Origin: Luteibacter mycovicinus
Lineage (GTDB): Bacteria; Pseudomonadota; Gammaproteobacteria; Xanthomonadales; Rhodanobacteraceae
Reading direction: 5' to 3'
DNA length: 64,000 nt
Assembly: GCF_000745235.1 (NCBI RefSeq)
Contig: NZ_JQNL01000001.1
Span: 1,054,001-1,118,000, forward strand
The notes under the pieces were generated by a model. It had not been told where the DNA came from. It made no database searches and saw only the letters and a program-made list of their open reading frames with translations. The translations under genes and the position numbers were made by a program. Shown here in pieces: positions 5,939 through 25,847 of this stretch. The first letter of the stretch is position 1, and every line of letters starts with the position of its first letter.

Positions 5939-7330
5939 TCAGGCCGGACCGGCGGGAAGCAACAGGGTGACGCGAAGGCCGCCGCCGTCGCGGTTGGACA
6001 GCGCGATCCGGCCGCCATGGGCTTCCGAAATTTCTCGGGCAAGCGCCAGCCCAAGGCCGGTACCCGAGCGCTTGGTCGAATAAAAAGGCAATAACGCCTG
6101 CGCCAGGACGGTGTCGCTCATGCCCGGACCGCGGTCGGCCACCTCGATCAGGGTTTCGCGGCCGATGTGGTGGACCGCCAGGCTGACCTCCGTGGCCTCC
6201 CCGCCGGCCTCGTGCGCGTTCTTGATCAGATTGATCAGCACCTGCTCGACCTGGGTGCGATCGAACCACCCCGGATGCTCGGGCAAGGGCGCCGCAAGGC
6301 GAAATTCTGCGTGCAGAGCCAGATCGTCGAGAAATGGCGCCCAGGGGACCTCGCGGGCCTGCGGCGCGGGCAGTTTGGCAAAGCTGGCGTAGCCGGCAAT
6401 GAAACTGTGCAGGTGTTTCGCGCGGTCGCCGATGGAGGCGAATACGCCGGGCAAGCGGGCGAGATCGCCGCGACGTGCGAGTTCGGCACCGGAATGCGAC
6501 AGCGACGAGATGGGCGCCAGGGAATTGTTGAGTTCGTGACTGATGACGCGGATGACCCGTTTCCACGTGTGTACTTCCTGGCGGGAAAGCTCACGCGTCA
6601 TGCGACGGTACAGCTGAAGCCGGTGAGGCCGCCCCTGCAGACGGAAGCCCCGCTGCGAAAGGTGGAAGGTCTCTTCGCTGCCATCCATCTCGACATTGAA
6701 CAACGCGTCCTCGCCGGCGCCGGCGGCATCGCGAAGGTTGGCGGGCATGGCTTCGAGCACCGTCGCGAAGTCGAGACCCGCCAACGCCCGGCCTTCGTTG
6801 AAGAGATGCCTCGCCGCGATGTTCGCGTAGGTGACCTTGCCTGTCGCATCGGTCAACACGAGGGCGACGGGCGTGTTCTGTACCACGGTGTCCAGCAGCA
6901 ACTCGCGCTGGGCGAGATGCTGGCGTTGTTCGCGCAGCGTCTGGCCAAGCGCGTTGTGCATGTGGATCAGGTCGCCGAGTTCGTCGTTGCGGCCCGATCC
7001 GATCGAGATGCTGAAGTCGCCATCGCGATAACTGGCCAGTGCGCTTTCCAGGGCGCGCATCAGACGACGCAGGGGCTCGACCAGAAGGTGCGCCACCCAG
7101 GCCGAGAGCGGCAGCAACACCAGAAGACAGATGACCAGGGCCGTGGTGCCGTCGAACGCCTCGATCGGCCCCGGCGTGGGCACTTTGCCGGTCTTGTCAG
7201 GCACCGCGCGCATCCACGCCAGCACCTGCGGGAACGGCCAGATGGAAACGCCCGCGAACACCAGCGCGCCGACGATGGCCGATGCGGCCACCACGATCGT
7301 CATGCGTCCCTCTAGCGTGAGCGTCCTCAT
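5939..7330 (-). CDS. NtrY-like sensor histidine kinase
   Basis: A 463-residue membrane kinase. Two transmembrane segments ([20 protein letters not shown] near residue 10-30 and a second around 70-90) bracket a short ~35-residue periplasmic loop. Next come a HAMP region, a PAS domain ([19 protein letters not shown]), the dimerisation/phosphoacceptor helix with His265 in ISHELNNSL, and the HATPase domain ([28 protein letters not shown]). The HELNN form of the H-box is typical of NtrY/AtoS-type kinases that pair with sigma-54 activators. The ATG at 7330 lies 10 bases after the stop of the regulator gene. The small sensor loop suggests it senses within the membrane or through its transporter partners. 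Confidence 0.88.
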
Positions 7331-7340
7331 CGGCGGCGCG

Positions 7341-8675
7341 TCAGACAGCCAGCCCGTATCGCTCCATCCGCCGGTAGAGCGCTTGCCGTGACAGGCCCAG
7401 GCTGTTCGCGGCGCGACTGATGACCCCGCCCGCCGAGGCCAGGGCCGCTTCGACCGACTCGCGGCTGGGTTCGTCGAGGTTGCGCGTGGCGTTCGCCGAC
7501 GGCGGCGGCAGGTTGAGGTGTACCGGCTCGATGCGACCGTCCGGTGCCAGCAGCGCCGCACGCGCGATGGCGTTTTTCAGCTCACGTACGTTGCCCGGCC
7601 AGGAGTGCGCCAGCAGGGCTTCGCGAGCGTCTTCGGTCAATGTGGCCTTGCCGTCCAGGAAATGCCCGGCCAGCGGCAGGATATCGTCGCTGCGCTCGGA
7701 GAGCGGAGGGAGGTTCACGTCGATGACGTTGAGGCGGTAATAGAGGTCTTCGCGGAAGGTGCCCGCGGCGATCATCGCCTTGAGGTCGGCATTGGTCGCG
7801 CTGACCAGGCGCACCTTGACCTGTCGCGTCCGTCCCGAACCCAGTCGCTCGAACTGGCCCGTCTCGAGCACGCGCAGCAGCTTCATCTGCCCCGGCAGCG
7901 GCAGGTTGCCGATCTCGTCGAGGAACAACGTGCCGCCATGAGCCATCTCGAAGCGGCCCTCCCGCGCCTTGTTGGCGCCCGTATACGCGCCGGCCTCGGC
8001 ACCGAAGAGCTCGGCCTCGATCAGCTCCCCGGGAAGCGCACCGCAATTGACCGCGACGAACGGCCCGTGCCGCACGGCGGAATTGGCGTGCACGATCGCG
8101 GCGATGCGTTCCTTGCCGGCACCGTTGGGACCGGTCACCAGCACGGATACGTCGGAACGCGCGACCTGACATGCGAGCTCGATCGTGCGGCTCATGGCCT
8201 CGGAAGCGAATACCAGGCCATCGAGTTCGTAGCGGCTTTCCAGAGCTTCGCGCCGGCGACGGCGTTCGACATGGACGCGCGTGGCCTCGCGGTTGGCTTC
8301 GGCCAGTTCCAGCAGGTTTTCCACCGTCGCCAGCAGCTTGTTGTCATCCCACGGCTTGGCCAGATAATCGGAAGCGCCGGCCTTGACCAGTTCCACCGCG
8401 GCTTCGAGGTGCGTCCACGCCGTGAGCAGGATCACCGGCAGGTCGGTGTAACGCGCGCGGATGGCCTTGAACAGCGCGATGCCTTCCTCCCCCGACGTGG
8501 TGTCGGCGGTGAAGTTCATGTCCTGAATGACGACATCGATCCGTTCACGGCCAAGCATCGCCAGGCCTTCTTCGGGTGTGAGCGCGACAAGGGGCCGGAT
8601 CTCGCGGAGGCTGAGAGCAAGCGAAAGGGCCTCGCCGACGGCGGGGTTGTCGTCAATGATCAGTACGCAGCGCAT
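7341..8675 (-). CDS. Sigma-54-dependent response regulator (NtrC family)
   Basis: A 444-residue activator. Receiver domain at 1-120 with the acidic pair Asp8-Asp9 and phospho-acceptor Asp52 (VVIQDMNF), Thr in LLTAW and Lys in YLAKPWDD. The AAA+ domain starts with an unusual Walker A (TGPNGAGKER instead of GESGTGKE), then the sigma-54 contact loop, which reads GAYTGA instead of GAFTGA, and Walker B GGTLFLDEIG. The C-terminal Fis-type helix-turn-helix is ISRAANSLGLSRQALYRRM. The ATG at 8675 was preferred to one five codons earlier because the protein starts as RRs do at MRCVLIIDDN. It very probably controls the -24/-12 promoter in front of the cluster through the three palindromes near 15974-16022. 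Confidence 0.9.
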   Translation of the reverse strand: MRCVLIIDDNPAVGEALSLALSLREIRPLVALTPEEGLAMLGRERIDVVIQDMNFTADTTSGEEGIALFKAIRARYTDLPVILLTAWTHLEAAVELVKAGASDYLAKPWDDNKLLATVENLLELAEANREATRVHVERRRRREALESRYELDGLVFASEAMSRTIELACQVARSDVSVLVTGPNGAGKERIAAIVHANSAVRHGPFVAVNCGALPGELIEAELFGAEAGAYTGANKAREGRFEMAHGGTLFLDEIGNLPLPGQMKLLRVLETGQFERLGSGRTRQVKVRLVSATNADLKAMIAAGTFREDLYYRLNVIDVNLPPLSERSDDILPLAGHFLDGKATLTEDAREALLAHSWPGNVRELKNAIARAALLAPDGRIEPVHLNLPPPSANATRNLDEPSRESVEAALASAGGVISRAANSLGLSRQALYRRMERYGLAV

Positions 8676-8678
8676 GTG

Positions 8679-8724
8679 AACCTTTGGCATGCAGGCATGG
8701 ATGCTTCTCGATGACCAAAAGGTT
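8679..8724 (-). promoter_or_regulatory. Possible ribosome-site-masking hairpin before the regulator gene
   Basis: On the minus strand AACCTTTTGG (8715-8724) can pair with CCAAAGGTT (8679-8687) with one bulged base. The right arm carries the AAGG ribosome site just before the ATG at 8675, so pairing would hide it and could lower regulator translation relative to the transporter genes. Structure prediction by eye only. Confidence 0.3.
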
Positions 8725-8750: not shown

Positions 8751-9968
8751 CTAACCACGTGTCGCGACCACCGGGGGAACCGCCGCCGCGCGCAGGGCCG
8801 GGGCCAGCACGGCGGCCTGCCCGAGAAGCCAGAGGATGATCGCCCCGGCCGGCAGGTAGACCAGCGGAAGCCTCGGCACTTCGTATTGCCACATCAGCAG
8901 CAGGTTTATCCCATAAGCCAGCACCATGCCTACGCCAATCCCGATGCTGGCCAGCAGGAAGTTTTCGGTCTGAAAGTAACGCAGCACATCGACCCGGCGC
9001 GCGCCCAGTGCCCGCCGTACGCCGATCTGCCGACGCCGCTGGCCAACCCAGAAGCTGGCCAGACCGACGATGCCCAGCGCGGTCACCGTGAGCAGTGCGA
9101 TACACACACCGACCAGCAAGACGGCCATGGCACGATCGCTGGCGAAATACGCGTCGCGAATGTCGCTGTAACGCTGTTTGCCGGTGACCACCCGTCGCGG
9201 GTCGAGCTGGCGAAGTTTGGCCGCGGCGGCCGTCAGTACGCGGTCCGCCTCCCCCGGTTTCACTCGCAGTAAGAAGGCCGCGCCCATCGCCGGATACTCC
9301 CGCAGCGGCACCATCGTGCTGAAGGCGGCCTGCCCACGGTCGCCGCCCCCGGCGCGCGACAGTCGTTTCACGACACCGACCACACGCATCTCGTTATCGC
9401 CGACGAACACGCTTCGACCGATCGGATGCCCGTCGGGGAAAAGCCGGTCGGCGGCGTCTTTCGAAAGGATGATCGACGGGGCCACCTTGACCTTCGCGCT
9501 GACGACATCGTCCATCCAGCGATACTCGTCGGGGCGGAACCACCGGCCTTCGGCCAGCTGCACACCCATGACCTCGCCGATGCGCTCGCCGTAGAAATTG
9601 CCGGTATTCAGGCTCGACACATGCTGATCGCGCTGAAGACCGACGCCACTGTTCCAGCTGCGGTCGCCGAAAGGCACCGAGTTGGCCACGGTGGCGTCTT
9701 CCACACCCGGGATCTCGCGAAGAGCGGCCAGATCCGCGAGGGTGCGTGCATGCATGTCGGTGTGGATACCGATGTCACCCACTTCGATACGCACCAGACG
9801 TTCTTCGTCGACACCACTGGGCGTGTCCATCCACGCCAGCCGGTCGCGCACCAGGAAAACCGCGTTGCAGACGATCGCGCACGTCAGGGCGATCTGCAGA
9901 ACGAGCAGCGTGCAGGTGAAGCGATGGCGTCGCAGTGTGGAGAGGATAGGTCCGATCTGCATGTTCAT
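8751..9968 (-). CDS. ABC transporter permease, FtsX/MacB type (type B, copy 2)
   Basis: A 405-residue inner-membrane permease with MacB topology: one N-terminal helix (about 17-37, LLVLQIALTCAIVCNAV), a large periplasmic domain (about 45-280) and three C-terminal helices. The family signature on the cytoplasmic loop is SFWVGQRRRQIGVRRALGA, very similar to the gene at 11287. The start at 9968 is one base from the stop of the preceding permease, so translation is coupled. It is the last of four permeases before the regulator gene, after a 75-base gap. The protein ends near PPVVATRG, as its paralogue ends at SPVEATRSV. Substrate unknown. Confidence 0.85.
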   Translation of the reverse strand: MNMQIGPILSTLRRHRFTCTLLVLQIALTCAIVCNAVFLVRDRLAWMDTPSGVDEERLVRIEVGDIGIHTDMHARTLADLAALREIPGVEDATVANSVPFGDRSWNSGVGLQRDQHVSSLNTGNFYGERIGEVMGVQLAEGRWFRPDEYRWMDDVVSAKVKVAPSIILSKDAADRLFPDGHPIGRSVFVGDNEMRVVGVVKRLSRAGGGDRGQAAFSTMVPLREYPAMGAAFLLRVKPGEADRVLTAAAAKLRQLDPRRVVTGKQRYSDIRDAYFASDRAMAVLLVGVCIALLTVTALGIVGLASFWVGQRRRQIGVRRALGARRVDVLRYFQTENFLLASIGIGVGMVLAYGINLLLMWQYEVPRLPLVYLPAGAIILWLLGQAAVLAPALRAAAVPPVVATRG

Positions 9969-9969
9969 G

Positions 9970-11271
9970 TCATTGACTCTTCAGCTGCAGCGCGGGCGTG
10001 ATGCTGCACGCGCGCCAGGCGGGAAGCAGGCCGGCGATCAACGTAGCGATCACCGAAAGCAGCAACGTGGCGACGAGCATGGCCAGATCGAGATGAGCCA
10101 GCCGGGCGAACGCATCGGGCTGCCTTCGCACCAGGGCGAGTCCGGCCCACGCGAGGATCAGCCCACCCACGCCTCCGGCCACACCGATCAGGCCGGCCTC
10201 GGTGAGCAATTGCGCAAACACGCTGCGCCGTGACGCGCCCAGTGCCCGCCGCACACCGACTTCGCCGGCGCGTCGCATGAATTTGGCCAGCATCAGCCCC
10301 ACGGTGTTGACCAGGCACACGACAAAAAATCCGAGGGCAAGCCACACCTGCAGGCGGACGTCACTCGGAACGACCTTCTGCTCTTCCAGGAAAGCGAGCA
10401 GGCCGGTCACCTCCGGGTGCTGGGGACGCTGAAAACGGCCAAGCGCCGCCTGCTCGTGCGCGTAGCCATCGAGGTAGCGACGATACGCTTCGAGGTGCGC
10501 CGCACTGTCGAGCTGCACCCAGTACTGCAGCCAGGTGCACGAGGCACGTTCCATCTCGTTTTCGGCGGTCGATCCCTCGCCCCAGCAGCTGATCCCACCG
10601 TCTCGGCCCATCTCCAGCGCGCGGGCCGTCGAGAGCGGGACGAACACGCCTTCGCTGCCCGAAAAGCTGCCGGTATAGATATCGTAGAAATGCGGCACGG
10701 GTCGCCAGACATCGAGCACGCCGATGATGCGAAGATCCGCCCCGTTAGCGCGTATCGTCCGGCCGACGCTGTTGGTGCCGCCGAACAGCCGGGCGTTCAG
10801 ATCGGCGCCGATCACGGCCACGTGTGCCCTGGACTCGTCCTCCGCATCGCTCCACGGCTGCCCGTAGCGGAATGGCACAGCGAACATCGGGAAGAAGTCC
10901 GCCGTCGTATAGCGCGCGTGCTCGATAAACGGATCCATGGCCTGGTCGTCGGACTGGACCGGTACCGTGCCACCCACCATCAGGGCCTGCCGGTCCGCCC
11001 GACGGTCCTTCAGCAAGCGCATGCCGTCGATCCAGGTCACCTGCACGGGGAGCTTCGTATCCTCCGCGTGGCTCAGATCGCGAGGGTCCATCCGGGGCAT
11101 GTAGATCGATCCACTGCGTTCCGGCAGCGGATCCCCCGACAGCACGTGCAGGACGGTCAGGGTGGTCATGCTCGCGCCGATCCCCAGCGCGACGGCGAGA
11201 ATCATGAGCGCCGTCAGCGCCCTGCTCCGCCTCAGGCTGCGAAAGGCGAGTTCCAGGTAGTAGGCGAACAT
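9970..11271 (-). CDS. ABC transporter permease, FtsX/MacB type (type A, copy 2)
   Basis: A 433-residue permease with N-terminal helix (ALTALMILAVALGIGASM), periplasmic domain with the FFPMFAVPFRYG segment found in both type A copies, and three C-terminal helices after the loop FMRRAGEVGVRRALGASR. It is clearly paralogous to the gene at 12512, which also starts MFxYYLxLxxRSLRR; the ATG at 11271 was chosen by that comparison, although an in-frame GTG exists at 11283. It lies 15 bases after the type B copy 1 stop. Type A and type B differ in length and loop sequence, so each A-B pair probably forms a heterodimer. Confidence 0.84.
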   Translation of the reverse strand: MFAYYLELAFRSLRRSRALTALMILAVALGIGASMTTLTVLHVLSGDPLPERSGSIYMPRMDPRDLSHAEDTKLPVQVTWIDGMRLLKDRRADRQALMVGGTVPVQSDDQAMDPFIEHARYTTADFFPMFAVPFRYGQPWSDAEDESRAHVAVIGADLNARLFGGTNSVGRTIRANGADLRIIGVLDVWRPVPHFYDIYTGSFSGSEGVFVPLSTARALEMGRDGGISCWGEGSTAENEMERASCTWLQYWVQLDSAAHLEAYRRYLDGYAHEQAALGRFQRPQHPEVTGLLAFLEEQKVVPSDVRLQVWLALGFFVVCLVNTVGLMLAKFMRRAGEVGVRRALGASRRSVFAQLLTEAGLIGVAGGVGGLILAWAGLALVRRQPDAFARLAHLDLAMLVATLLLSVIATLIAGLLPAWRACSITPALQLKSQ

Positions 11272-11286
11272 CGATACACCCACGCG

Positions 11287-12501
11287 TCAGACGCTCCGCG
11301 TCGCTTCGACGGGCGACACCCGCGAGGCGCGCAACGCCGGCGCGAACACCGCCGCCTGACCGAGGCCGAGCAGCGCGACCACACCGACCATGACGTACGT
11401 GAACGAAAGCCGCTTCATCTCGAAATGCGTGAACATCCACTGGCTCAGCCCCAGCGCGAGCATCGTGCCGACGACCACGCCGGCGAGCGCGATCAGGAAG
11501 TTCTCGGTCATGAAGTAACTGAGGATATCGCTGCGCTTCGCCCCCAATGCGCGCCGCACACCGATCTGCTTACGCCGCTGCCCGACCCAGAAGCTGGACA
11601 GGCCCACGATGCCCGCCGCCGTGATGGCCAGCAGCACGCCGCAGACGACGCTCATCAGGATCGCCATGCCGCGATCCGCCTCATAGGCGTTCGCACGTAC
11701 CGTTTCGAAGGTACGGATGCCGTATTTTTCGGGAAGGACACGCATGCGGTTGACGTCGAACAGGACTTTGGGAACGCTCTTGAATACGGCGTCCTGCTGG
11801 CCCGGCTTGGTACGGATCATGAAACTCTGTCCGCCGTCGTTGAACGTCAGCGGCATGATCGTCACGCTGTCCATGAAGTCCATGTCGACCCACGGAACGG
11901 TCAGCTTCGCCACGATGCCGATGATGGTCGACGGCTTCCCGCCTCGGTAATAGATGACCTTGCCCAGCGCATCGCCGTTGGGGAAAAGTTTGTCGGCCAG
12001 CGTCTTGGTCACGATCACCTGCGGCGGGGACGGCGACTCCTGGCGCTCGAACGAGCCGACCTCGGAAGCCGTGAAATTCCGGCCGGCGATGAGCTGCACG
12101 CCCAGCGTCTTGAGCGTGTGCTCGTCGCCGAAGTAAAGCGCGGTCTGCGCGCCGCCCTTGGTCGCATCCGGTGCCGTGCGCGCCGTCAATGACCAGCCAC
12201 CCCGGCGCAGCGGATACGTATTGGTGACATACGCATCTTCCACGCCGGGCATGGCGCGAATGGCCTGGATGTCCGTCCTGATGATCGGAAGGTAGGTCGA
12301 GGGCGCGCCTACATACCGGTTCTGCACGGCGATCAGGTTCGACTCATTCATGCCTGTGGGACGGTTCGCCCGTTCGACGCGCTCATGCACGATGAACAGG
12401 GCATTGCAGACGATGGCCAGGGTCAGCGCGATCTGCAGCGCGATGAGGATGGTGCCGGCCTTATGCCGACGCAGCGCGGCGAGGATGGGAAGTATCTGCA
12501 C
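11287..12501 (-). CDS. ABC transporter permease, FtsX/MacB type (type B, copy 1)
   Basis: A 404-residue permease: N-terminal helix (ILIALQIALTLAIVCNALFI), periplasmic domain about residues 45-280, three C-terminal helices (ILMSVVCGVLLAITAAGIVG, LIALAGVVVGTMLALGL, VMVGVVALLGLGQAAVF). The coupling loop SFWVGQRRKQIGVRRALGAK is nearly identical to the other type B protein. It starts 10 bases after the stop of the type A copy 1 gene. Its ATG is preceded by a GAGGATTTCATCG-like leader. No own ATPase domain is attached, unlike MacB, so it must use the separate ATPase encoded at 13852. Confidence 0.86.
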   Translation of the reverse strand: MQILPILAALRRHKAGTILIALQIALTLAIVCNALFIVHERVERANRPTGMNESNLIAVQNRYVGAPSTYLPIIRTDIQAIRAMPGVEDAYVTNTYPLRRGGWSLTARTAPDATKGGAQTALYFGDEHTLKTLGVQLIAGRNFTASEVGSFERQESPSPPQVIVTKTLADKLFPNGDALGKVIYYRGGKPSTIIGIVAKLTVPWVDMDFMDSVTIMPLTFNDGGQSFMIRTKPGQQDAVFKSVPKVLFDVNRMRVLPEKYGIRTFETVRANAYEADRGMAILMSVVCGVLLAITAAGIVGLSSFWVGQRRKQIGVRRALGAKRSDILSYFMTENFLIALAGVVVGTMLALGLSQWMFTHFEMKRLSFTYVMVGVVALLGLGQAAVFAPALRASRVSPVEATRSV

Positions 12502-12511
12502 GATGAAATCC

Positions 12512-13819
12512 TCAGTTCGACTTCAGCTGCCAGGCGGGCTGCACTTGAGCGGCGCGCCAGGTCGGATAGAAAGCGGCGATGATCGACGCGGCGATCGACA
12601 CCACGAGCGTGAGCAGCACGAGCATCGGGTCCAGTGTGGCCAGCCGGGCGATGGGCTCGGGGAAGACCAGTCCCACGCCGAGCACACCCAGCCCGGTAAG
12701 AATCAGGCCCAGGACGCCCCCTGCGACGCCGATCGTGCCCGCCTCGATCAGGAACTGCGCGTAGATATGCAGCCGTGACGCGCCCAGCGCCCGGCGAACG
12801 CCGATTTCAGGTGCCCGACGCATGAACTTCGCCAGCAGCAGGCCGACCGTGTTGACCAGGCAGATCACCAGGAAGCCCAGCGATACGACCAGCGACACCT
12901 GCGACTCCGGCGGAACGACGTTCTGCACCGACAACCAGTCCATCACGTCACGCACGCGCCCGTTGGGTGCCCAGCGAAAACGGCCAGCACGTTGTTGTTC
13001 GGCGCCATAGCCGGCGATGTACTGACGGTAGGACTCCGCCGCGGCACGGGTCGGCAGCTCCGCCCAGAGCGACAGCCAGATGCACTCGGAACGCAGATAG
13101 TTGTCCCAGCCTTCACCGGGATCGGCGACACAGTTGTTGTTGCCACTATTGGGCAGTTTGAGATCGACAGCCCGGTTGAATGGCACATACACCGAGGCGC
13201 CATCGTTGAACCCGCTCGTATTGGGCACGTCGAAGAACAGCGGCTGCGGCGCCCAGTCCTGGATCACGCCGCTGATGCGGAACAGATGGCCATCGATGTT
13301 GATCTGCTTGCCAACGCTCTGGCCGCCGTCGAACAGCTTGTCGTTCAGCGTCTTCGAGATCACAGCGACGCTGGCATGGCGCTCGTCGTCGTCCAGCGTC
13401 CATGCCTGTCCCTGGATGAAGGGCACATCGAACATCGGGAAGAAGTCGGCACCTGTCGCGTACGCACCTTCGCGCACCGGTAGACGGCTCGGGTCTTCCG
13501 GGATCACGGAAATGCCGATCGGATAGGTCACCGTCTGCCGTTCGGCCTTGTGTGCCCGCAGCAGCGCCATCGCGTCCTGGTACGACAATGCCGGGGGTGG
13601 CTCGCCCTTCTCCGTATTCTCGGGACCCCAGTTGTCGACCTGCACGTTGTAGAGCACGGCCGACTTCTGTGGAATCGGATCCCGCGACGTCGCGCGGAAC
13701 ACCGAGTACGTCGTCATCGACGCGGCCACGCCGAAGCCGATGGCCATCACCATCAGTGCGGTGAGGACCGGGTTGCGCCGCAGGCTGCGCATACCGAGTT
13801 GGAGGTAGTAACTGAACAT
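12512..13819 (-). CDS. ABC transporter permease, FtsX/MacB type (type A, copy 1)
   Basis: A 435-residue permease starting MFSYYLQLGMRSLRRN, with N-terminal helix (VLTALMVMAIGFGVAASMT), a periplasmic domain including DFFPMFDVPFIQGQ, and three C-terminal helices after the coupling loop FMRRAPEIGVRRALGASR. It lies 32 bases downstream of the ATPase stop with GGGGGAATCC serving as ribosome site. FtsX-type permeases with a large periplasmic domain usually act as mechanotransmission or lipoprotein/peptide/macrolide extrusion systems driven by a cytoplasmic ATPase and a periplasmic adaptor; the substrate here is unknown. Confidence 0.86.
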   Translation of the reverse strand: MFSYYLQLGMRSLRRNPVLTALMVMAIGFGVAASMTTYSVFRATSRDPIPQKSAVLYNVQVDNWGPENTEKGEPPPALSYQDAMALLRAHKAERQTVTYPIGISVIPEDPSRLPVREGAYATGADFFPMFDVPFIQGQAWTLDDDERHASVAVISKTLNDKLFDGGQSVGKQINIDGHLFRISGVIQDWAPQPLFFDVPNTSGFNDGASVYVPFNRAVDLKLPNSGNNNCVADPGEGWDNYLRSECIWLSLWAELPTRAAAESYRQYIAGYGAEQQRAGRFRWAPNGRVRDVMDWLSVQNVVPPESQVSLVVSLGFLVICLVNTVGLLLAKFMRRAPEIGVRRALGASRLHIYAQFLIEAGTIGVAGGVLGLILTGLGVLGVGLVFPEPIARLATLDPMLVLLTLVVSIAASIIAAFYPTWRAAQVQPAWQLKSN

Positions 13820-13851: not shown

Positions 13852-14562
13852 TCAGGAGTGGGCGACGTTGGGATGCGAGTGGAAGCGCGGTTCTTCAGCG
13901 AGGTCGACCACCTGGCCGTCGATCACGTGGACGTTGCGCTGCGCGCGTGCGGCGAGTTCCGGATCGTGAGTCACCATGACGATGGTGGCGCCTTCACGGT
14001 GGATCTCTTCCAGCAGTTCCATCACGCCGCGGGCCATCTGCGTATCGAGGTTACCGGTCGGTTCGTCGGCCAGAAGAAGACGCGGTGAGCCGGCGAGTGC
14101 GCGGGCGATGGCGACACGCTGCTGCTGACCGCCGGAGAGTTCGGCCGGGTAATGCCTCGCGCGCGAGGCCAGGCCGACACGCTCGAGCGCGTCCATGATG
14201 CGCTGCTTGCGCTCGGCGGCTTTCATGCCGCGATAGCGCAGCGGCACTTCGACGTTGTCGAACACGTTGAGGTCGGGGATCAGGTTGAACGCCTGGAAGA
14301 TGAAGCCGATCTTCTCGTTGCGGATCTTCGAGCGGGCGTTATCGTCGAGCTTGCTCACTTCGACGCCGTCCAGGTGGTACTCGCCACCGGTGAACGTCTC
14401 GAGCAGGCCGGCGATGGTGAGGAAGGTGGTCTTGCCCGAGCCGGACGGTCCGGTGACGGCCACGAACTCGCCTTCCTTCACATCGATGTTGAAGTCGCGC
14501 AGGGCGTAGGTCTCGACGACTTCCGTGCGGTAGACCTTGGCGAGATGGTTCATCTTGAGCAT
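13852..14562 (-). CDS. ABC transporter ATP-binding protein (MacB/LolD type)
   Basis: A 236-residue ATPase of the MacB/LolD/FtsE group. Walker A GPSGSGKTT, Q-loop FIFQAFNLIPDL, signature LSGGQQQRVAIARAL, Walker B LLLADEPTGNLD, H-loop MVTHDPE are all intact. The NLD sequence after Walker B is typical of this group. The ATG at 14562 follows a GAGGGAAAC ribosome site; the frame is open further upstream but that part is not protein-like. It is the only ATPase in the cluster and must energise all four permeases. The adaptor gene ends 34 bases upstream. Confidence 0.93.
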   Translation of the reverse strand: MLKMNHLAKVYRTEVVETYALRDFNIDVKEGEFVAVTGPSGSGKTTFLTIAGLLETFTGGEYHLDGVEVSKLDDNARSKIRNEKIGFIFQAFNLIPDLNVFDNVEVPLRYRGMKAAERKQRIMDALERVGLASRARHYPAELSGGQQQRVAIARALAGSPRLLLADEPTGNLDTQMARGVMELLEEIHREGATIVMVTHDPELAARAQRNVHVIDGQVVDLAEEPRFHSHPNVAHS

Positions 14563-14596
14563 GACGTTTCCCTCGGTGGATGAATGGTTGGAACGG

Positions 14597-15868
14597 TTAA
14601 CGGCTGATGGCGATGTGCTTGGCGGTGCCAAAGGTGTCCGCCCCGGAGATGACGATCTTGTCGCCCTCCTTCAGGCCGTCCAGAATCTCGACCTTGTCGA
14701 TGCTGCTGGCACCGACACGGATATCGCGACGATCGGCCATGCCGTCGGCCACGACGTAAGCGTAGCGGCCGGCGCTTTCGTCCACGAACGAGCCGCGCTC
14801 GACGGTCAGTACGTTGTCGCGTTTGTCGAGCAGGATACGCACGGACATGCGCTGGCTCTGGCGCAGCTGCTTGGGTGTATCGCCGTCGAAACGCAGTCGC
14901 GCCGCGACTTCGCCATTGACCACCTCGGGCGAGATCGCGCTCACCTTCCCGTCCCACACCTTGCCGTTACCGGTGATCTCACCGGGCATGCCGATCGCGA
15001 GGTCGCGCGCGAAGCTCTCCGGCACTTTCATCTCGACTTCGAGGGCGGACAGATCGATGACGCTCAGCAGCTGGGCATCCTTGGCGACCGTGGCGCGCTC
15101 GGCGATGAACAGCTGACCGACCTGCCCGTCGACGGGCGACTTCACGTTGAGGTCGTCGACCTGGCGCTCGAGGTCTTTCACCAGCAGCAGCTGACGGTCG
15201 TGGGCCAGCTTCTTCGACTGCACGTCGAAAGTCAGGCTGTCGTTATCCGTCGCCAGGTCGGACTTCGCGTGCTTCGTGGTGATCGCCGCCTTATCCAGCG
15301 TGGACTTGGCCTTCTCCACTTCGGCGGCCGGCACGGCACCCTTGTCGAACGCGCTCTGGTAGCGCTTGAGGTCACGCTCGGCGGCGGTCTGATCGATGGT
15401 CGCGTTATCGAACGCCTTCTGCAGCTCGGAGCGCTTCTTCGTCGCGTCGATCTGCGCGCGCAGGAACTCCACTTCCATCGCATCGGCCGCCGACTGCTCC
15501 TGCGCGAGCTTGCTGGTGAGTTCGGGGCTGGTGATGACGGCGAGCGGCTGATTCTTCGTCACCACGTCGCCCGCATGCACTTTCAGCACGACCGCACCGG
15601 CGGACGCGGCATACATCGTCGGGCTCACGGCGGCGACCACTTTGCCTTCCGCCGCGATGTCGCGAACGAAGGGGCCACGGGTGACGGTGCCGAACGAGAG
15701 GCGCGAGGCGCTGACCGACGAATCCGCGGAGAACATCGTCGCGACCTTCGGCGCCGCGAAAACGAGTGCGGCCATGACCACCACGCCCGCGCCACCGAGC
15801 AGCAGTTTGCGCCGATGGCTCGGGCGGACTTCGACGAGGCGGTCCTGTGCGGAGGTGTCGCGGATCAT
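14597..15868 (-). CDS. Periplasmic adaptor (MacA/HlyD type membrane fusion protein)
   Basis: A 423-residue membrane-anchored adaptor linking the inner-membrane transporter to an outer-membrane channel. One N-terminal helix (LLLGGAGVVVMAALVFAAP) is followed by the barrel-sandwich half (PTMYAASAGAVVLKVHAGDV), a long alpha-hairpin (about residues 105-225, AQEQSAADAMEVEFLRAQID...), the returning lipoyl half (VKSPVDGQVGQLF), a beta-barrel domain and a membrane-proximal domain ending KEGDKIVISGADTFG. First gene of the export operon, directly behind the sigma-54 promoter; AGGGA lies about eight bases before the ATG. No outer-membrane TolC-like gene is present in the window. Confidence 0.9.
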   Translation of the reverse strand: MIRDTSAQDRLVEVRPSHRRKLLLGGAGVVVMAALVFAAPKVATMFSADSSVSASRLSFGTVTRGPFVRDIAAEGKVVAAVSPTMYAASAGAVVLKVHAGDVVTKNQPLAVITSPELTSKLAQEQSAADAMEVEFLRAQIDATKKRSELQKAFDNATIDQTAAERDLKRYQSAFDKGAVPAAEVEKAKSTLDKAAITTKHAKSDLATDNDSLTFDVQSKKLAHDRQLLLVKDLERQVDDLNVKSPVDGQVGQLFIAERATVAKDAQLLSVIDLSALEVEMKVPESFARDLAIGMPGEITGNGKVWDGKVSAISPEVVNGEVAARLRFDGDTPKQLRQSQRMSVRILLDKRDNVLTVERGSFVDESAGRYAYVVADGMADRRDIRVGASSIDKVEILDGLKEGDKIVISGADTFGTAKHIAISR

Positions 15869-15901: not shown

Positions 15902-15918
15902 AGCAAGCGGCGTGCCAA
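15902..15918 (-). promoter_or_regulatory. Sigma-54 (-24/-12) promoter of the export operon
   Basis: The minus strand reads TTGGCACGCCGCTTGCT. This matches the -24/-12 consensus (TGGCACG-N4-TTGCW) at every conserved base, with exactly ten bases between GG and GC. Predicted transcription start is near 15891, giving a leader of about 23 bases before the adaptor start at 15868. Confidence 0.9.
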
Positions 15919-15973
15919 CACGAAATACTAAATCAGATCATAGCCTTGCAAGGAATCCGGCGTGTGAGACGTG

Positions 15974-16022
15974 TGTCCGCGGACAAAGTGTCCGGACACC
16001 CGCGGGTGGCGGACACGTCCGC
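15974..16022. promoter_or_regulatory. Three palindromic upstream activator sites
   Basis: TGTCCGCGGACA (15974-15985) and GTGTCCGGACAC (15988-15999) are perfect 12-base palindromes; GCGGACACGTCCGC (16009-16022) is near-perfect. All share TGTCC/GGACA half-sites. They lie about 80-130 bases upstream of the predicted start, the usual place for enhancer sites of NtrC-type activators, and are likely bound by the regulator encoded at 7341-8675. Confidence 0.75.
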
Positions 16023-17485: not shown

Positions 17486-19197
17486 GGGAATTCCTCGATC
17501 AGTTTCTGCGCCAGCGCCGCGACGTCGCCGGCATAGGCCGCCACACGCTCTTCGCGGATACCCGCGACCATGTGGCCATGCGCCTCTTCCACCGGCACGC
17601 TTTCCACCCAGACGCGACCGCCGGCGTCATAAACCGCCTGCGCTCCCGCCACGGCATCGTTCCCGCGACCGGCGAACACGATGGCCAGCGCGTCGCCACC
17701 GAACCCGCCGGCCAGCGTGCTCAGGACACCGTCGATCGACGGGCCCGCACTGCCGGTCGCGCTGGCGTCCTCGCGCACCGTGACGCTGCCGTCGCGGCGG
17801 ATCTGTACGTGCGACCCGCGCGGCACCACCAAGCGCTCGCCGTGGGCCGTATGGTCCTGCTCGCCGGCGATTCGCAGATCGCCCAGACGACGCGCGAATG
17901 CCTGGGTGTCGTCATGATGCGCGACGACGAGAAGCACCGCGGGAAGACGTGCGGGGACCGCGGCCAGGAACGCGGCGATCGACGCTTCGCTTTCGCCTGC
18001 GCCGCCGAGGGCGATCACCCGGCGCACGGCACGCGAGCTGCCTTCGAGGAACATCTCGTGAGAGAACTCGCCATCGGTGCGCGGCGCGATGGCTTCTTCC
18101 ATCGAGACCAGTTCGAGCGTGAAGCCCGCCTCGATGCCGTGCGTCCCGTCGTCGACGATGTCCTGTGCGAGGTATTCCGCAGCCGTGAGCGTTTCGATAC
18201 CGAACTCCGAAGCGGGCGGGCGAGCCACCGTTTCGGGCACGACGGCGTCGTGGTCGATCAGGTCCCATTCGGGCGCCGGGGGCGGTACGTATTCGGTGGC
18301 GCGGCCTTCGATCTCCAGCTTCGGCGTGCCTGCCTGCGCCGTGCCCGGCAGGGCATCGTCCTCAGGTGCGAGCGAGAACTGGCTCAGGTCGAATTCGCGT
18401 TCCGGTGCGGGCGACGGCGGCGGCGTTTCGTCGATGACCTCGAAGCCGGACAGATCGAGCGACGCCAACTCGGTCAGTTCGACCGGTGCGGACGGCACCT
18501 CGTCCAGGCCGTCCGTGCTGATCGCGGAGGCATCGGTGTCGGCCAGCAGCGCTTCGAGTTCGGCGGCGAGCTCCGTCGGATCGGCCCCCTCACCGTCGTG
18601 TTCGCCCGTGGCGGACAGCGTGGTCGAAAAGGCCAGTTCGTCGGGCACATCGTCCTCGACACCCGGCACGGCATCCATCGACACAGGCGCAGGCTTGTCG
18701 ACGGATGCCATCGGCTCCTCGGGATAACCGTGCGTACCCGTGATGGCCAGGTCATCGACCAGGGGTTCGTTGAAGGTCTCTTCGGCCGGTGCGGCAACGC
18801 CGGCCATCGCGACCACACGCGGTTCGATGGCTCGGGCGTCTTCGGGGCGTGGCGGATCCATCGGTGACACGCCGACCAGCTTTGCCGCGAGATGCCGGGC
18901 CCAGCGGGCGCGGTCCCAGCCTTCCAGCGCGCGGCTCACGTCCGCATCGTTGAACACCAGGCGCGGATGTCCGCCTTCGACCGTGTCGTACAGACGGTCG
19001 AGGTCGTCATCACTGGGGTCGTCGAGGTCGACCACGACCACATCGGCCGACGAACCGACCAGTTCGGCGGGCGCGAAGGCACGAAGGTCCGATTCATAGA
19101 CGATCGTCGCGCCCTGCTCGACCAGCGCGTCGCGCAGGTGTCCGGACAGCGCTGAGTCGTCGAACAGTAACGCCACCAGGGGCGCACGATCACCCAT
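17482..19197 (-). CDS. chpB: ChpB-like protein: degenerate receiver plus CheB methylesterase domain
   Basis: A 571-residue protein. Residues 1-120 look like a receiver-derived domain (VALLFDDSALSGHLRDALVE, DVVVVDLDD), then comes a long acidic, Pro/Ala-rich linker (about 130-370), then a CheB methylesterase-like domain (RRVIALGGAGESEASIAAFL onwards). In CheB the catalytic serine sits in G-A-S-T-G-G; here the aligned segment reads LGGAGESEA with glycine at the serine position. The His (VVAHH) and Asp (GRGNDAVAG) positions seem kept. Catalysis is therefore doubtful; it may serve as a scaffold. The start at 19197 overlaps the chpA stop by 8 bases. Position between chpA and chpC matches ChpB. Confidence 0.75.
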   Translation of the reverse strand: MGDRAPLVALLFDDSALSGHLRDALVEQGATIVYESDLRAFAPAELVGSSADVVVVDLDDPSDDDLDRLYDTVEGGHPRLVFNDADVSRALEGWDRARWARHLAAKLVGVSPMDPPRPEDARAIEPRVVAMAGVAAPAEETFNEPLVDDLAITGTHGYPEEPMASVDKPAPVSMDAVPGVEDDVPDELAFSTTLSATGEHDGEGADPTELAAELEALLADTDASAISTDGLDEVPSAPVELTELASLDLSGFEVIDETPPPSPAPEREFDLSQFSLAPEDDALPGTAQAGTPKLEIEGRATEYVPPPAPEWDLIDHDAVVPETVARPPASEFGIETLTAAEYLAQDIVDDGTHGIEAGFTLELVSMEEAIAPRTDGEFSHEMFLEGSSRAVRRVIALGGAGESEASIAAFLAAVPARLPAVLLVVAHHDDTQAFARRLGDLRIAGEQDHTAHGERLVVPRGSHVQIRRDGSVTVREDASATGSAGPSIDGVLSTLAGGFGGDALAIVFAGRGNDAVAGAQAVYDAGGRVWVESVPVEEAHGHMVAGIREERVAAYAGDVAALAQKLIEEFP

Positions 19198-22100
19198 GGT
19201 GAACTCCGAGCACATCGTTGATCTGGATGACCAGATCGTTTTCCTGATACGGCTTGCCGATGTAACGGTCCACGCCGATGTCGAACGCGCGCTGACGATG
19301 TTTGTCGCCGGTACGCGAGGTGATCATGATGATGGGCACGCCCGCCAGACGCTCATCGGCCTTCATCTGCGTCGCCAGTTCATAGCCGTCCATGCGTGGC
19401 ATCTCGATGTCGAGCAGCATCAGGTCGGGCACGCGCTCATTGAGCTTTTCGAGCGCGTCGATACCGTCCTTCGCCGTCATCACCTCGAACTCGTGACGCT
19501 CCAGCACGCGGCCGGTGACCTTGCGCATGGTGATCGAATCGTCGACCACCATGACCAGCGGCTTCACGCGGATCTCGTCCTGCGCGCGCGGTGCGTGCGG
19601 GATGGCCGCCTCGGCTTCGAAGGCGCGGCGAGCCATGCCATGACGCACCAGGGGCGCGAGGTCGAGAATCATCAGCACCGAACCGTCGCCCATGATCGTC
19701 GCGCCGAGGATACCCGGCACCGAGCTGACCTGCGGACCGACCGGCTTGACCACGATTTCGCGCGAGCCGAGCACGGCATCGACACGGATCGCGGCACGCA
19801 GGTCGCCCGAGCGAGCGAGCAGCAGCGGAATATCGCCCTCGTCCGGCGACGCGACGATATGCACGCCCAGCAGCTGCGGCAGGTCGTGGATGGCGAACTC
19901 TTCACCCAGATAGTCGAACGCGGGCTGCTCGTCGGCCATGCGGTGGGCAAGCTCGTTCGGCTCCACACGCGCCACGCCGTTGACCGAGGTCATCGGGATG
20001 GCGAAGTTCGTTTCACCGATGCGCACGATCAGGGCCTGGGTCACCGCGAGGGTGAACGGCAGGCGCATCACGAAGGTCGTACCGCTGCCCTTCTCCGATT
20101 CGATCGCCAGCGTGCCGCCGAGCTGCTTGATCTCGTTGGCGACCACGTCCATACCGACACCACGACCGGCTACCTGGGTGACCTTCTCCGCGGTGGAGAA
20201 GCCCGGTACCTGGGTGAGCTGAAGGATCTGGTCGTCGGAAACACGGGCATCCGGACGCAGCAGGCCGCGCTCGATCGCCTTGGCGCGAATGGCATCGCGG
20301 TCCATGCCGGCACCGTCGTCGGACAGGCGTACCACGACCTCGGTGGCTTCGCGCGCCACCTGGATACGCACCGTGCCTTCCGGATGCTTACCGTTGGCTT
20401 CGCGAGTGTCCGGTGTCTCGATACCGTGGGCGACCGCGTTACGCAGCATGTGCTCGAACGGCGCCTTGATACGGTCGAGCATGTTGCGGTCCATTTCGCC
20501 GTTGGCGCCTTCCACCACCAGCTGCGCCCGCTTGCCAACGTCGTTGGCGGCCTGGCGGAGCGTGCGGCGAAGGTTGGGCACCATCGCGTCGAACGGCAAC
20601 ATGCGGGTCTGCATGAGACCTTCCTGCAGTTCCGCGTTGACCCGCTGCTGCTGGAGCAGAAGGTTTTCGGACTGACGGGTAAGCTCATCGAGGATCGTCT
20701 GCAGCGAGACCAGATCGGATACCGACTCGGCCAGCGCTCGCGAGTACTGCTGAAGCTGCGAGAAGCGATCGAGTTCGAGCGGATCGAACGTCGCCGATCC
20801 GGTATCGCGGTGTTCCTGGTGGTAACGCGCGATGATCTGCGCTTCGGTTTCGATTTCGAGCATGCGCAGCTGGCTGCGCAGACGGCTGACCGTCTGCTCG
20901 TGCTCGGTGAGCGTCGAGCGGAAGCTGGCCGTCTGCTGTTCCAGGCGCGAGCGGTAGATCGACACTTCGCCGGCGTGGTTCACCAGCGTGTCGAGCATGT
21001 CCGCGCGGACACGGATCTGTTCCTGCGACGCGCGCTGCAGTTCTTCTTCCTCGAATTCCGGCAGCAGGTCCGGCAGTTCGTGGTCGAGGACAGGAATGAC
21101 TTCCGGTTCCGGCAGGGGCTCGGTCGCCGGGATGTACTCGGCGGCCTCGCGCTCTTCACGGTAAGCCTCGGCGGTCAGCGTATCCGGTGCGATGGGCGCG
21201 CCGGCCAGGCGTGCGAACGGCTCGATGTCGGCATCGCTGAGCGCGATCGCGCGGTTCTGCGCGATGCTCTGGATCATGCCGTGCAGACGATCGAAACCGA
21301 CTTCCATCGCTTCGATGGAGGCGCGGTCGCTTTCGCGCTGGCCCGTGGCCACCGCGTCGAGCAGGGCTTCCATCGCATGCGCGAAGTCGCCGACCGGCGC
21401 CAGGCCAGCCATGCGCGCACTGCCCTTCAGCGTGTGCAGATCGCGCTGCAGCGAGGTGACGTGTTCCGCCACCTGCGGCTCGATGCGCCATGCGGCGAGC
21501 GCGCCGTCGGCGTGATCCAGAATCTCGCGGCCTTCCTCGACGAACACCTCGAGCAGGTCGGGATCGATATCGGCATACGGCGAAAGCTCCGGCACCAGGG
21601 CCGGTGCCGGCTCGTCCACCGGCGTATGCACCGGCGCGGCGACCGGTTCATGCGACTGGTCTTCGATGAGAACGGGCTCGGCCACGGCGGGCTCGGCCAC
21701 GTCTTCCGGCTGAGCCACGTCTTCCGGCTCGGCCACTTCGTCCGGCTCGGCCACTGCTCGCGGCTCAGCGGCTTCTTCCGGCTCAGCCAGCTCGAACGAT
21801 GCTTCGGACTCCGCCATGTCAGCGGCGTACGGCGCTACTTCCGGAGCCTCGGCCTGGTCGACAGGTATTTCCTCGGCCACCGGCTCGAAGACGGGCTCGG
21901 TGGGAGCCGACTCTGCCGGCGCGTCGGGACCCGCCGACGCCAGCGGATCGGGATCGACAAACGAATCCTCTTCCGACGGCGTCTCGTCGATCACTTCATC
22001 GTCGGCGGAAACGACCTCCCCGACACGCGAATCCTCGACACGCGGTTCGACGAGGCCATCGTCGGTATGCGGCACGTCACCGTCGTGCGACATCGGCTGC

Positions 22101-25100
22101 GGCAATGCTTCCGCTTCGGCTTCGGCGTTGGCTTCCGCTGCCGCGTCGACCGACGGCCCGGCCGGCGTCGTCGCCGCGGCATCGAATCCCTCCACCAGCG
22201 CGCGCCAGGCAGCCGCTTCGTCGACGTCGTACTTCGCGATCGGCTCGACCACGCCTTCCGGTTTGTCGACCTCGAAACGTTCGAACGAAGCGAGCAGCTC
22301 GGCCGTGAGATCGTCCGTGCTGTCGATCGGCTCGACGGGCGCCAGCTCGATCCCGGGAATGGCCTGACTGTCCGTCTCGGCGTCGATGTCGGCCTGAAGC
22401 TCGGCGAGCGTCAGCTCCTGCTCTTCGGACGTTTCGGATTCAGGCTCCACGTCGGCGACGACGTCGGCTTTCGTTTCGACCGCGGGCGGAGCGGCAGCCT
22501 CGAGCTCGGCCAGCTCACGGGCCAGCATCGCTTCCAGCTCGGCTTCGAGATCCCCCGGAGCGGCAGCATCCTCTTCCACGCTGTCGTCGGCGAGGGTTTC
22601 CGTGTCGAGCGACGACCCGGAGGCCACGTCGTCTTCCGGCAAGACCTCGTCCACGACCGGCGGCGGGACGTCGTCGACGACGTTCGCAACGTGCGGCACG
22701 ACGTCTTCGATGTTGTCGATGTTGTCGATGTCGGCGACGACCGGCGTCGCGGACGCCGCGTCGACGGGCGTCTCGTCCAGCGGCAGCGGATCGGGCTCGT
22801 ACAGGATGTGCGCGACCGTCGCTTCGGGCTGTTCGTCGCGCATGGCGATGATATGTGCCGCCAGCGCGGCCACGTCCGGTACGCGCGGATCCGGGGTGTC
22901 GAACTGGTCCATCACGTGATCGACGAGATCGGCCGTATCGGTCAGCGCGTCTACGCCTTCGACACGCAGCGGCAGGCCGCTGGCACGAACGCGCTTGATC
23001 AGGCCTTCCAGCGGTGCGAGCACCTGGATGAGCACCGGGATGTCGACCATACCGATGGCACCGTGCAACGTGTGCACGGCACGCAGCAGCGCGTCGTCGA
23101 CAAACAGTTCGCCGTCGCCGGCGCGGGCCAGGTTGGCACGAATGATCGTGAGGTACTGGGCCACCTCGGTACGCAGGATGTCGAGCAGCACGGCGTCGAC
23201 CGGCGGCAGCGGCGGCGCGACATACACCGGCTCGCTCGGCGCGGCTTCGACGGGCTCGGCGGGCGTCTGCCCGTAGCTGGCGAAAGCGGCGGTCGGCACG
23301 GCGGCGATGGTGTCGCGGGGCACGCGACGCTTCACCTTGGTGCGGACCTTCTGTACGGAGCTCTTCGCGACATCTTCCACGAAGGCCATGTCGCCCATCG
23401 CGAGGCGATCCGCGGTTTCCATGATCGCGGCGATCGGCGCACCCGGCGTGCTTTCGCCTTCGAGAGCGGCCTTCAGCTGCGGCAGCGCATCGATGGCATG
23501 ACGGACCAGCGCCTGCACGCCCGGATGCGGTTCGATGCTCTTGTCGAGCACGCGGTTGAGCGTGTTCTCGACCTTCCAGGCGAACTCGCCCAGAAGACGG
23601 GCGCCGACCAGACGACCGGAGCCCTTCAGCGTATGGAACGAGCGACGGATCGGAACGAGCGACTCGCTTCTTTCCGGATTGGCCAGCCACGCGCTCTGCG
23701 CGGCGCGGAGATTGTTGATCTCTTCCTCGGTTTCTTCGAGGAAGATCTCGCGGATTTCGTCGTCGATACCGTCGACCGTGATCTGGAAGCCGGCGAACTC
23801 GGCATGGCCTGCGCCGCCCACTTCCTGCTCGATTTCTTCCTCGATCTCGACCCAGTCTTCCTCGCCCGCGGCAGCGGCGGGCTCCGCAGCGGCCGCGACC
23901 GGCGACGTCGCTTCAGGCGCCGTCGCTTCGGGCGCGGCGACCGCGGCGGCCGCGGCGATTTCCGCCTCGGTCGGCGGCTCGTCGACCAGATCGAACGATT
24001 CCGCAAACGTCGATACCGTTTCGCCCGCATCGACGCTGGTCGACGGCACGGCGATGTGCTCGATCGCCTCGCTTTCGATGCGCTCGATCGCGGCTTCGCC
24101 CAGCGGCTCGGCTACGTCTTCCTCAGCGGTCGGCAGCGGCCAGTAGCCGAGCTCGGCCAGGCTCTGCTGCGTCACGTCCAGTATGTGCTCGAGGCCACCG
24201 CGGTGTTCGCGGGCGGCTTCGAGGTAATACTCGAGCGCCGCCAGTGCATCGGCAAGGCGATCCATCTGCGCGCCGTTCGGCACGCGGCGGTCGCCGAGCA
24301 GTTCACGATGAATGAACAGGCCAATGCCGTCGGCGAGTTCGCCGGGGCGCGGAGCGCCCAGCATGCGCATCGCGCCGCCGATTTCGGCCATCAGCTCTGG
24401 CGTACCGTCCAGCTGGGCGTGATCCCAGGACGACTCGACGAAGGCGACGATCGCGTCCTTGACCTTCGACGTGTTGCCCGTGGCTTCGCGCATCAGCGTG
24501 GCGAGAATGTGGCGTGCTTCGCTGCGCGGAAGCGGCGACGGACCGAGGTCGGAAACGACCTGCTCCTCGCCCTCGGCACCGAGGCGTTCGATGTGGTCGT
24601 CGAGCGAGGCTTCGACGTAGAGCAGCGCACCCGCGACATCGAGCAACGACTCTTCGTCGGGATCGCGCGCACCGGTGGCGATTTCGCCGAGGATCCGGCG
24701 CTGTTCGCCCACCACGCGGCGCGGCACACCGAGCGCAAGCATGCCCAGCGTGTCACCGACACGATCGAGTACGTCAGCCTGCGGGCCGAGCTGAGCGGGA
24801 TCGCCATCGGGGCGACGGAGGAACAGATCGAGCGATTCCTTCACGCGCAGCAGGTCTTCCTTGATCGCCACCGACACGGTGTCGAGCAGCGCGCGGTTGT
24901 GACCGGACATCGAGCCACGGGCATGCTCGACCTCGGCCGCCTGCGGCAGCAAGCCGTCGAGGCGATAGGTCTGGCGCAGTTCTTCGAGGCGTTCGCTGCC
25001 CGGCTTGGCCTGCGCGACGTAGTACAGCAGCTTGCGTGCGAGTTCGTCCGCATCGCCGTTGAGCAATGCGTCTTCGCCACCCTCCACCAGTTCACGGATG

Positions 25101-25843: not shown

Positions 25844-25847
25844 TGCA

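Follow-up and report, generated by a model that had tools for sequence, protein, structure and literature searches.

An operon for a tripartite-type exporter of the soil bacterium Luteibacter mycovicinus appears, from its sequence, to be one member of a regulon that also includes a permease pair, small membrane peptides and, in relatives, secreted hydrolases. The operon and its promoter lie in the window, the whole 64,000-nucleotide stretch of DNA analysed here, to which coordinates refer unless a genome position is given. Across genomes, we observed conservation of an upstream palindromic site (UAS), its association with a sigma-54 promoter, clustered spacings between the two, co-occurrence with an NtrC-type regulator and a recurring gene content. 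We infer a circuit of binding, looping, activation and in vivo autoregulation, in which the regulator encoded at 7341–8690 would bind the 12-mer TGTCCGCGGACA and adjoining TGTCCG half-sites, reach the sigma-54 polymerase at 15902–15917 via a looped spacer and switch on its own operon of adaptor, ATPase, permease pairs, regulator and kinase. As the regulator gene sits in the operon that its product would activate, the circuit would be autoregulatory. In its own genome, the regulator would also activate a second permease pair and two genes for single-transmembrane (TM) peptides, all with an exact UAS, and further targets would be a third peptide with a one-mismatch UAS and possibly TolC; in relatives, a DUF4440 protein and secreted hydrolases would join the targets. 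As predictions, the promoter, the operator and autoregulation have good support, and we consider the regulator, UAS and sigma-54 explanation as a whole highly probable. The elements of the promoter and the genes of the operon are as follows.

16009–16022, no strand assigned: third site, GCGGACACGTCCGC, with everted half-sites GGAC..GTCC and one TGTCC on the minus strand (at −111)
15989–15998, no strand assigned: UAS 2, TGTCCGGACA, exact, without spacer
15974–15985, no strand assigned: UAS 1, the conserved 12-mer TGTCCGCGGACA, exact, 56 bp upstream of the sigma-54 site
15918–15973, no strand assigned: 56 bp spacer between TGTCCGCGGACA and the sigma-54 site
15902–15917, minus strand: sigma-54 promoter TGGCACGCCGCTTGCT (−24/−12), exact match to TGGCACG-N4-TTGCT
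14597–15868, minus strand: periplasmic adaptor (HlyD/MacA type), 423 aa, ATG 15868; Pfam HlyD_D23 and HlyD_3, NCBIfam RND_mfp, MacA chains in PDB
13852–14562, minus strand: ABC ATPase, 236 aa, likely start ATG 14562 (from the reading frame); Pfam ABC_tran
12512–13819, minus strand: permease A1, MacB_PCD and FtsX; aligns with the first half of ADOP
11287–12501, minus strand: permease B1, MacB_PCD and FtsX; aligns with the second half of ADOP
9970–11283, minus strand: permease A2, MacB_PCD and FtsX
8751–9968, minus strand: permease B2, MacB_PCD and FtsX
7341–8690, minus strand: NtrC-type response regulator; receiver (D57, T90, K112), AAA+ with GAYTGA, Fis HTH
5939–7330, minus strand: histidine kinase, 463 aa, ATG 7330; two TM helices, short loop, HAMP, HELNN, HATPase

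The gene order on the minus strand is thus adaptor, ATPase, permeases A1, B1, A2 and B2, regulator and kinase, and the adaptor, ATPase, four permeases, NtrC-type regulator and HELNN kinase of the original prediction were all found. The adaptor passes the RND_mfp model (TIGR01730) with 115.8 bits against a cut-off of 94.9. The ATPase query used in searches was seven residues longer than the likely protein, beginning at 14583, which is not a start codon. Two permease pairs lie between the single ATPase gene and the regulator here and three in G011, and in other relatives there are six (G025 and G027) or seven (G031 and G033) per ATPase gene; these counts come from six operons, with pairs spanning two sequence pieces counted by coordinates. 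About 50 bases past the kinase stop, the gene for an SPFH/Band_7 protein begins (4912–5886, minus strand), which may be co-transcribed. Elsewhere in the window, a 2249 aa frame (19190–25939, minus strand) resembles a chemotaxis kinase of the ChpA/PilL type and has repeated Hpt-like stretches, judged from the translation only.

The near-perfect sigma-54 promoter originally proposed proved an exact match at 15902–15917 on the minus strand, with the GG-N10-GC spacing (tested pattern TGGCACG-N4-TTGCW). The transcription start expected from its −12 element, about 15891, and the adaptor ATG at 15868 agree with the positions first given. The whole genome has six exact matches, this being the sole one in the window and also the only one of the six with TGTCC/GGACA half-sites within 180 bp upstream (half-site check on 30 of the 46 genomic matches with at most one mismatch, all six exact ones among them). 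Counted alone, the pattern is uninformative: matches were in no excess in the window (9 with up to two mismatches versus 12.01 expected) or in the genome (46 with up to one mismatch versus 88 in the reversed control). The genome encodes rpoN, with one Sigma54_DBD match above cut-off. No Rfam family matched at the gathering score between 4000 and 20000 of the window, and an inverted repeat in the 5′ untranslated region, considered as a conserved element, was set aside, since it is not generally kept in 22 Luteibacter leaders.

Three TGTCC/GGACA palindromes had been proposed upstream of this promoter. TGTCCGCGGACA and TGTCCGGACA are exact; the third site is everted, and with its half-site order reversed it contributes one TGTCC half-site, not a third copy of the palindrome. 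The proposed binding motif TGTCC-N2-GGACA therefore fits just one of the three sites, the second having no spacer, and needs correction. In its place, the conserved element, judged by sequence comparison, is the 12-mer with additional TGTCCG half-sites. Palindromes of the form TGTCC-N0..4-GGACA occur four times in the window versus 0.30 expected from shuffles, and 22 times in the genome versus 7 in a reversed control. The other two in the window (19139–19148 and 20998–21011) lie inside coding frames and are probably due to chance.

Searches for homologous adaptor genes gave 54 matches with at least 38 percent identity; upstream regions were compared for 46 of these, and eight were excluded. 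The 12-mer lay within 250 bp of 36 of the 46 adaptors: 22/22 in Luteibacter, 12/14 in other members of the family and 2/10 at loci from other families. All 36 of these promoters also have a sigma-54 site, and TGGCAY-N5-YTGC was found no more than 130 bp from the start codon in 38/46. In the 80 bp above the 12-mer, the 36 promoters hold 92 TGTCCG/CGGACA half-sites, where block shuffles give 3.2. Of the 22 Luteibacter adaptor promoters, 15 retain TGTCCGGACA. The expectation that the palindromes would recur ahead of homologous adaptors was thus borne out for the 12-mer and, within Luteibacter, largely for TGTCCGGACA, though not as three copies of one motif. By this comparison, the UAS tag appears conserved across the family Rhodanobacteraceae and beyond.

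The distance between UAS and promoter falls into discrete clusters. Among 197 distinct segments, 5 have spacers of 43–45 bp, 33 of 51–58 (peak 56) and 157 of 63–69 (peak 67), with single outliers at 74 and 84, and none at 46–50, 59–62 or 70–73. As the pattern searches spanned every spacer from 45 to 74, the gaps are not a search artefact; the sequences behind these and the co-occurrence counts are related and not independent, and the spacer clusters carry no p-value. Luteibacter adaptor promoters (n = 22) have 18 spacers at 56–58, two at 44–45 and two at 66; other adaptor promoters (n = 13) have 10 at 66–69, the remaining three being 63, 54 and 53. We read the clusters near 45, 56 and 67 bp as helical phasing, and adaptor promoters appear to have been shifted by whole helical turns.

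An IHF site is strong only in part of the set. The sequence WATCARNNNNTTR, which we take as the IHF consensus, occurs in 20/23 Luteibacter peptide promoters as grouped; two of the three misses, L167 and L170, represent other subtypes caught by the grouping rule, which assigned L158 elsewhere. Luteibacter peptide spacers (L138, L143–L157, L160–L163 and L076; also L158) share a near-invariant block, TGACAAACCTCATRCGAATCAGCTGATTG, and without L158 the full consensus is present in 20/21 promoters with this block. Elsewhere, the exact site occurs in 4/17 other peptide promoters, 4/35 adaptor promoters and 0/22 permease or other promoters. The window spacer (15918–15973) has no match to the consensus, and with exact sites this scarce beyond the Luteibacter peptide promoters, we claim no IHF site for the window.

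In the 4,625,266-base genome, TGTCCGCGGACA has three copies, each ahead of a sigma-54-like site, of which one is exact and two have a single mismatch. These and two looser candidates make up the predicted targets:

Window, minus strand: exporter operon promoter, copy 1 of TGTCCGCGGACA in the genome, with the exact sigma-54 site
Genome 1927809–1927903: permease pair (L076), copy of TGTCCGCGGACA with a one-mismatch sigma-54 site
Genome 1934204: peptide genes of 27 and 64 aa, then a TrmL-like gene; copy of TGTCCGCGGACA with a one-mismatch sigma-54 site (last position)
Genome 906694: 43 aa peptide, one-mismatch UAS, spacer 66
Genome 2208023: TolC, tentative; one-mismatch UAS, spacer 121 to a weaker sigma-54 match

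On this basis, TolC can be counted only tentatively as a regulon member in the Luteibacter genome. A TolC-like gene has its own UAS in five or more relatives (L137, L171, L176, L178 and L184; Pfam, run on L137 only, gave OEP). The pattern UAS-N45..75-TGGC-N8-TGC was found in 37/61 genomes (the organism's own and 60 relatives) and its reverse in 0/61. In a class-wide sample, the UAS with the sigma-54 pattern occurred in 6/369 genomes, two of which (G144 and G267) are outside the order and share a mutually near-identical segment.

A motif-only scan of the genome collection returned at least 119 stretches, with at least 80 loci listed. Of those 80, 34 precede exporter operons and another 34 peptide genes; 4 lie before permease pairs, 1 before a DUF4440 gene and 7 before other targets: an incomplete adaptor-like start (L235), two S33-type hydrolases, two DUF885 genes, one S10-type gene and L246, whose product had no Pfam match (Pfam was run on L188, L232, L246 and L247; L255 and L264 were named by likeness). 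DUF885 and DUF4440 genes also occur within the exporter operon of G023 and G037, which backs their assignment to the regulon. Secreted hydrolases are also encoded after some of the peptide genes, on the same strand: NlpC/P60 (L192), beta-lactamase family (L132 and L197), carboxylesterase (L212) and M23 (L243). Among the 80 loci listed, the named records are mostly from genera of the Rhodanobacteraceae (Dyella, Rhodanobacter, Luteibacter, Frateuria and others); Burkholderiales are represented among the rest by Roseateles, Paucibacter, Mitsuaria, Pelomonas and Rubrivivax. Ten pieces of the Roseateles-type group were examined, and TolC lies inside the operon in all seven that are long enough; the regulator is 68 percent identical in both pieces that reach its gene (L252 and L260). 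One record titled Candidatus Eremiobacteraeota (L198) has a Rhodanobacteraceae-like peptide–TrmL promoter region and is possibly a misbinned contig.

The regulator follows the motif. Of the 61 genomes, 47 have an ortholog with at least 65 percent identity, the remaining matches (E up to 1e-100) being at most 49 percent identical. An ortholog was found in 36/37 motif genomes versus 11/24 others (Fisher 4e-6, for related genomes and uncorrected for kinship), and the one motif genome lacking it, G007, is 80 percent complete. That 11 of the 24 genomes without the full pattern keep the ortholog suggests motif drift in distant families. G039 and G030 have the ortholog at a locus not linked to the adaptor, although G039 retains the 12-mer. 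The self-regulating operon of the original prediction, encoding its own NtrC-type regulator, thus holds as a prediction from sequence comparison; efflux of a toxic compound and induction by the exporter's own substrate are conjectures. Among the best 25 of 109 NCBIfam matches, the regulator passed no curated cut-off, that of the ZraR equivalog included; the top match was TIGR02915 (PEP-CTERM response regulator; 351.9 bits versus a cut-off of 502.6), followed by AtoC and NtrC, and the nearest PDB chains are NtrC-family regulators. By hydropathy and alignment, the kinase has little or no periplasmic domain: its TM1–TM2 loop is about 30–35 aa, of which about 26 alignment columns are gaps in 8/17 sequences, with the starts of distant kinases in this 17-sequence alignment set by alignment extension and hence uncertain.

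The small peptides fall into three length classes, all with M-(K/N/Q)-x-E followed by a single hydrophobic segment. Most long peptides end in C-x-(L/V)P-x-DG-x-x-C, a motif that is degenerate in the organism's own genome; the 27 aa forms are barely more than a TM helix, and the 43 aa forms are without the Cys motif. None matched Pfam or NCBIfam, and among the homologs (24 and 18) none is named beyond 'hypothetical protein'. Changes by codon position were 2113/916/3787 in the long class (2631 synonymous versus 2512 non-synonymous codon differences) and 787/539/888 in the 27 aa class (544 versus 1051), so that coding is well supported for the former and less so for the latter. At least three copies of the 43 aa peptide gene, preceded by a UAS and a sigma-54 site, occur in G011 (L140–L142) and at least four in G014 (L165–L168).

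Parts of the system resemble characterized ones. NtrC, ZraR, AtoC and PrsR systems likewise combine a receiver, an AAA+ domain with GAYTGA and a Fis HTH with palindromes upstream of a sigma-54 promoter; the operator TGTCCGCGGACA and the exporter, peptide and hydrolase targets set the present system apart. The MacA-like adaptor and the MacB_PCD/FtsX permeases recall MacAB-TolC, as does, in relatives, OEP/TolC in the operon or under the same UAS; in the Luteibacter genome, TolC with its one-mismatch UAS is a candidate partner. However, ATPase and permeases are separate genes here rather than a MacB with fused ATPase, two to seven alternating permease pairs accompany each ATPase gene in the six operons, and the MacA and MacB NCBIfam equivalog cut-offs were not reached. 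ADOP (TIGR03434) corresponds in its two halves to A1 and B1, but as two genes (154 and 192 bits versus a cut-off of 622), which are found here alongside an ATPase and a sigma-54 two-component system. Weak matches to the darobactin exporter DarBCD (adaptor to DarC, permease B1 to DarB) fell far under cut-offs. Among the papers listed from the open-licence literature searched, none was seen to describe the regulon or motif; the available part of Francke 2011 (PMC3162934) makes no mention of ABC transporter, efflux, HlyD, permease or 'palindrom', nor that of PMC9040847, on Luteibacter, of MacB.

The system plausibly serves export and peptide handling in the manner of MacAB-TolC, as a response to an envelope signal. 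Because the kinase has so little outside the cytoplasm, our guess is that it reads transporter activity or the membrane state. The Bce transporter is FtsX-type. The available part of PMC10314905 describes Bce modules (BceAB-RS), with a kinase without dedicated sensing domain, flux-sensing and a proposed positive feedback loop. The kinase here, too, is without a periplasmic sensor domain; in contrast to Bce modules, control is of the NtrC/sigma-54 type, with adaptor, TolC and a dispersed regulon, and kinase–transporter coupling is here only a candidate.

It is conceivable, at somewhat under an even chance, that the regulon protects against membrane-active compounds or peptides, in which case the sensor-less kinase would read permease cycling in a Bce-like manner. 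The short kinase loop, the FtsX/MacB-type permeases encoded in the same operon and the UAS common to secreted peptidase-like proteins are in line with this, as is the flux-sensing precedent. However, the response regulator is NtrC-type and comes with an adaptor and TolC, a combination that we do not know from Bce modules, and the starts of the distant kinases, set by alignment extension, are uncertain.

Small membrane peptides such as MgrB, SafA and AcrZ act as modulators, and the peptides of this regulon could do the same to the kinase or the permeases, the exporter's cargo being something else; we give this a little less than half the weight. The hydrophobic segment common to every length class and a kinase consisting, outside the cytoplasm, of little beyond TM helices both fit, although the topology of the peptides is inferred and the C-terminal Cys motif is left without a role. 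Alternatively, the peptides could be exported cargo, with a TM leader and a two-Cys C-terminal part (C-x-LPPDGV-x-CPR) that the exporter would release. Peptide genes are the commonest dispersed targets, level with exporter operons among the listed loci, and most long peptides share the two-Cys motif; against this, the 27 aa forms, the 43 aa forms and the degenerate motif in the organism's own genome make cargo unlikely, and the TM helix, as the part common to all classes, points rather to an accessory membrane peptide or one that modulates the kinase.

The operon's own regulator is our preferred activator at the UAS. Another activator acting there, for example the paralog at genome position 500120, is improbable: it adjoins a sigma-54-like site with TGTCC-N7-GGACA palindromes, but their spacing is wider, and it is the operon's regulator that tracks the motif across genomes and keeps 68 percent identity in L252 and L260. 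This second NtrC-type activator (genome 499584–500620, L026) ends just before the site, which has one mismatch, two such palindromes and a secreted proline-rich protein downstream, and is possibly a sister system distinguished by operator spacing. That the palindromes are mere chance, for which the 22 genomic occurrences, some within coding frames, might speak, is contradicted by conservation, spacing, target classes and reversed-pattern controls to the point of being negligible.

The system could be a Gram-negative Bce counterpart built from other parts: a sensor-less kinase reading the membrane or a MacAB-like exporter, an NtrC-type activator that has its own 12-bp operator, and a regulon of interchangeable permease pairs and tiny membrane peptides that tune the kinase or are cargo. 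We offer this tentatively, as a possibility with about one chance in three. The analysis supplies a concrete predicted operator, regulator and target list for a conserved system in Rhodanobacteraceae and Roseateles-like bacteria, and reveals operons in which a single ATPase gene accompanies as many as seven permease pairs. For studies of enhancer geometry, the clustered spacings are a natural series, and uncharacterised peptides and secreted hydrolases would be tied to a single predicted response.
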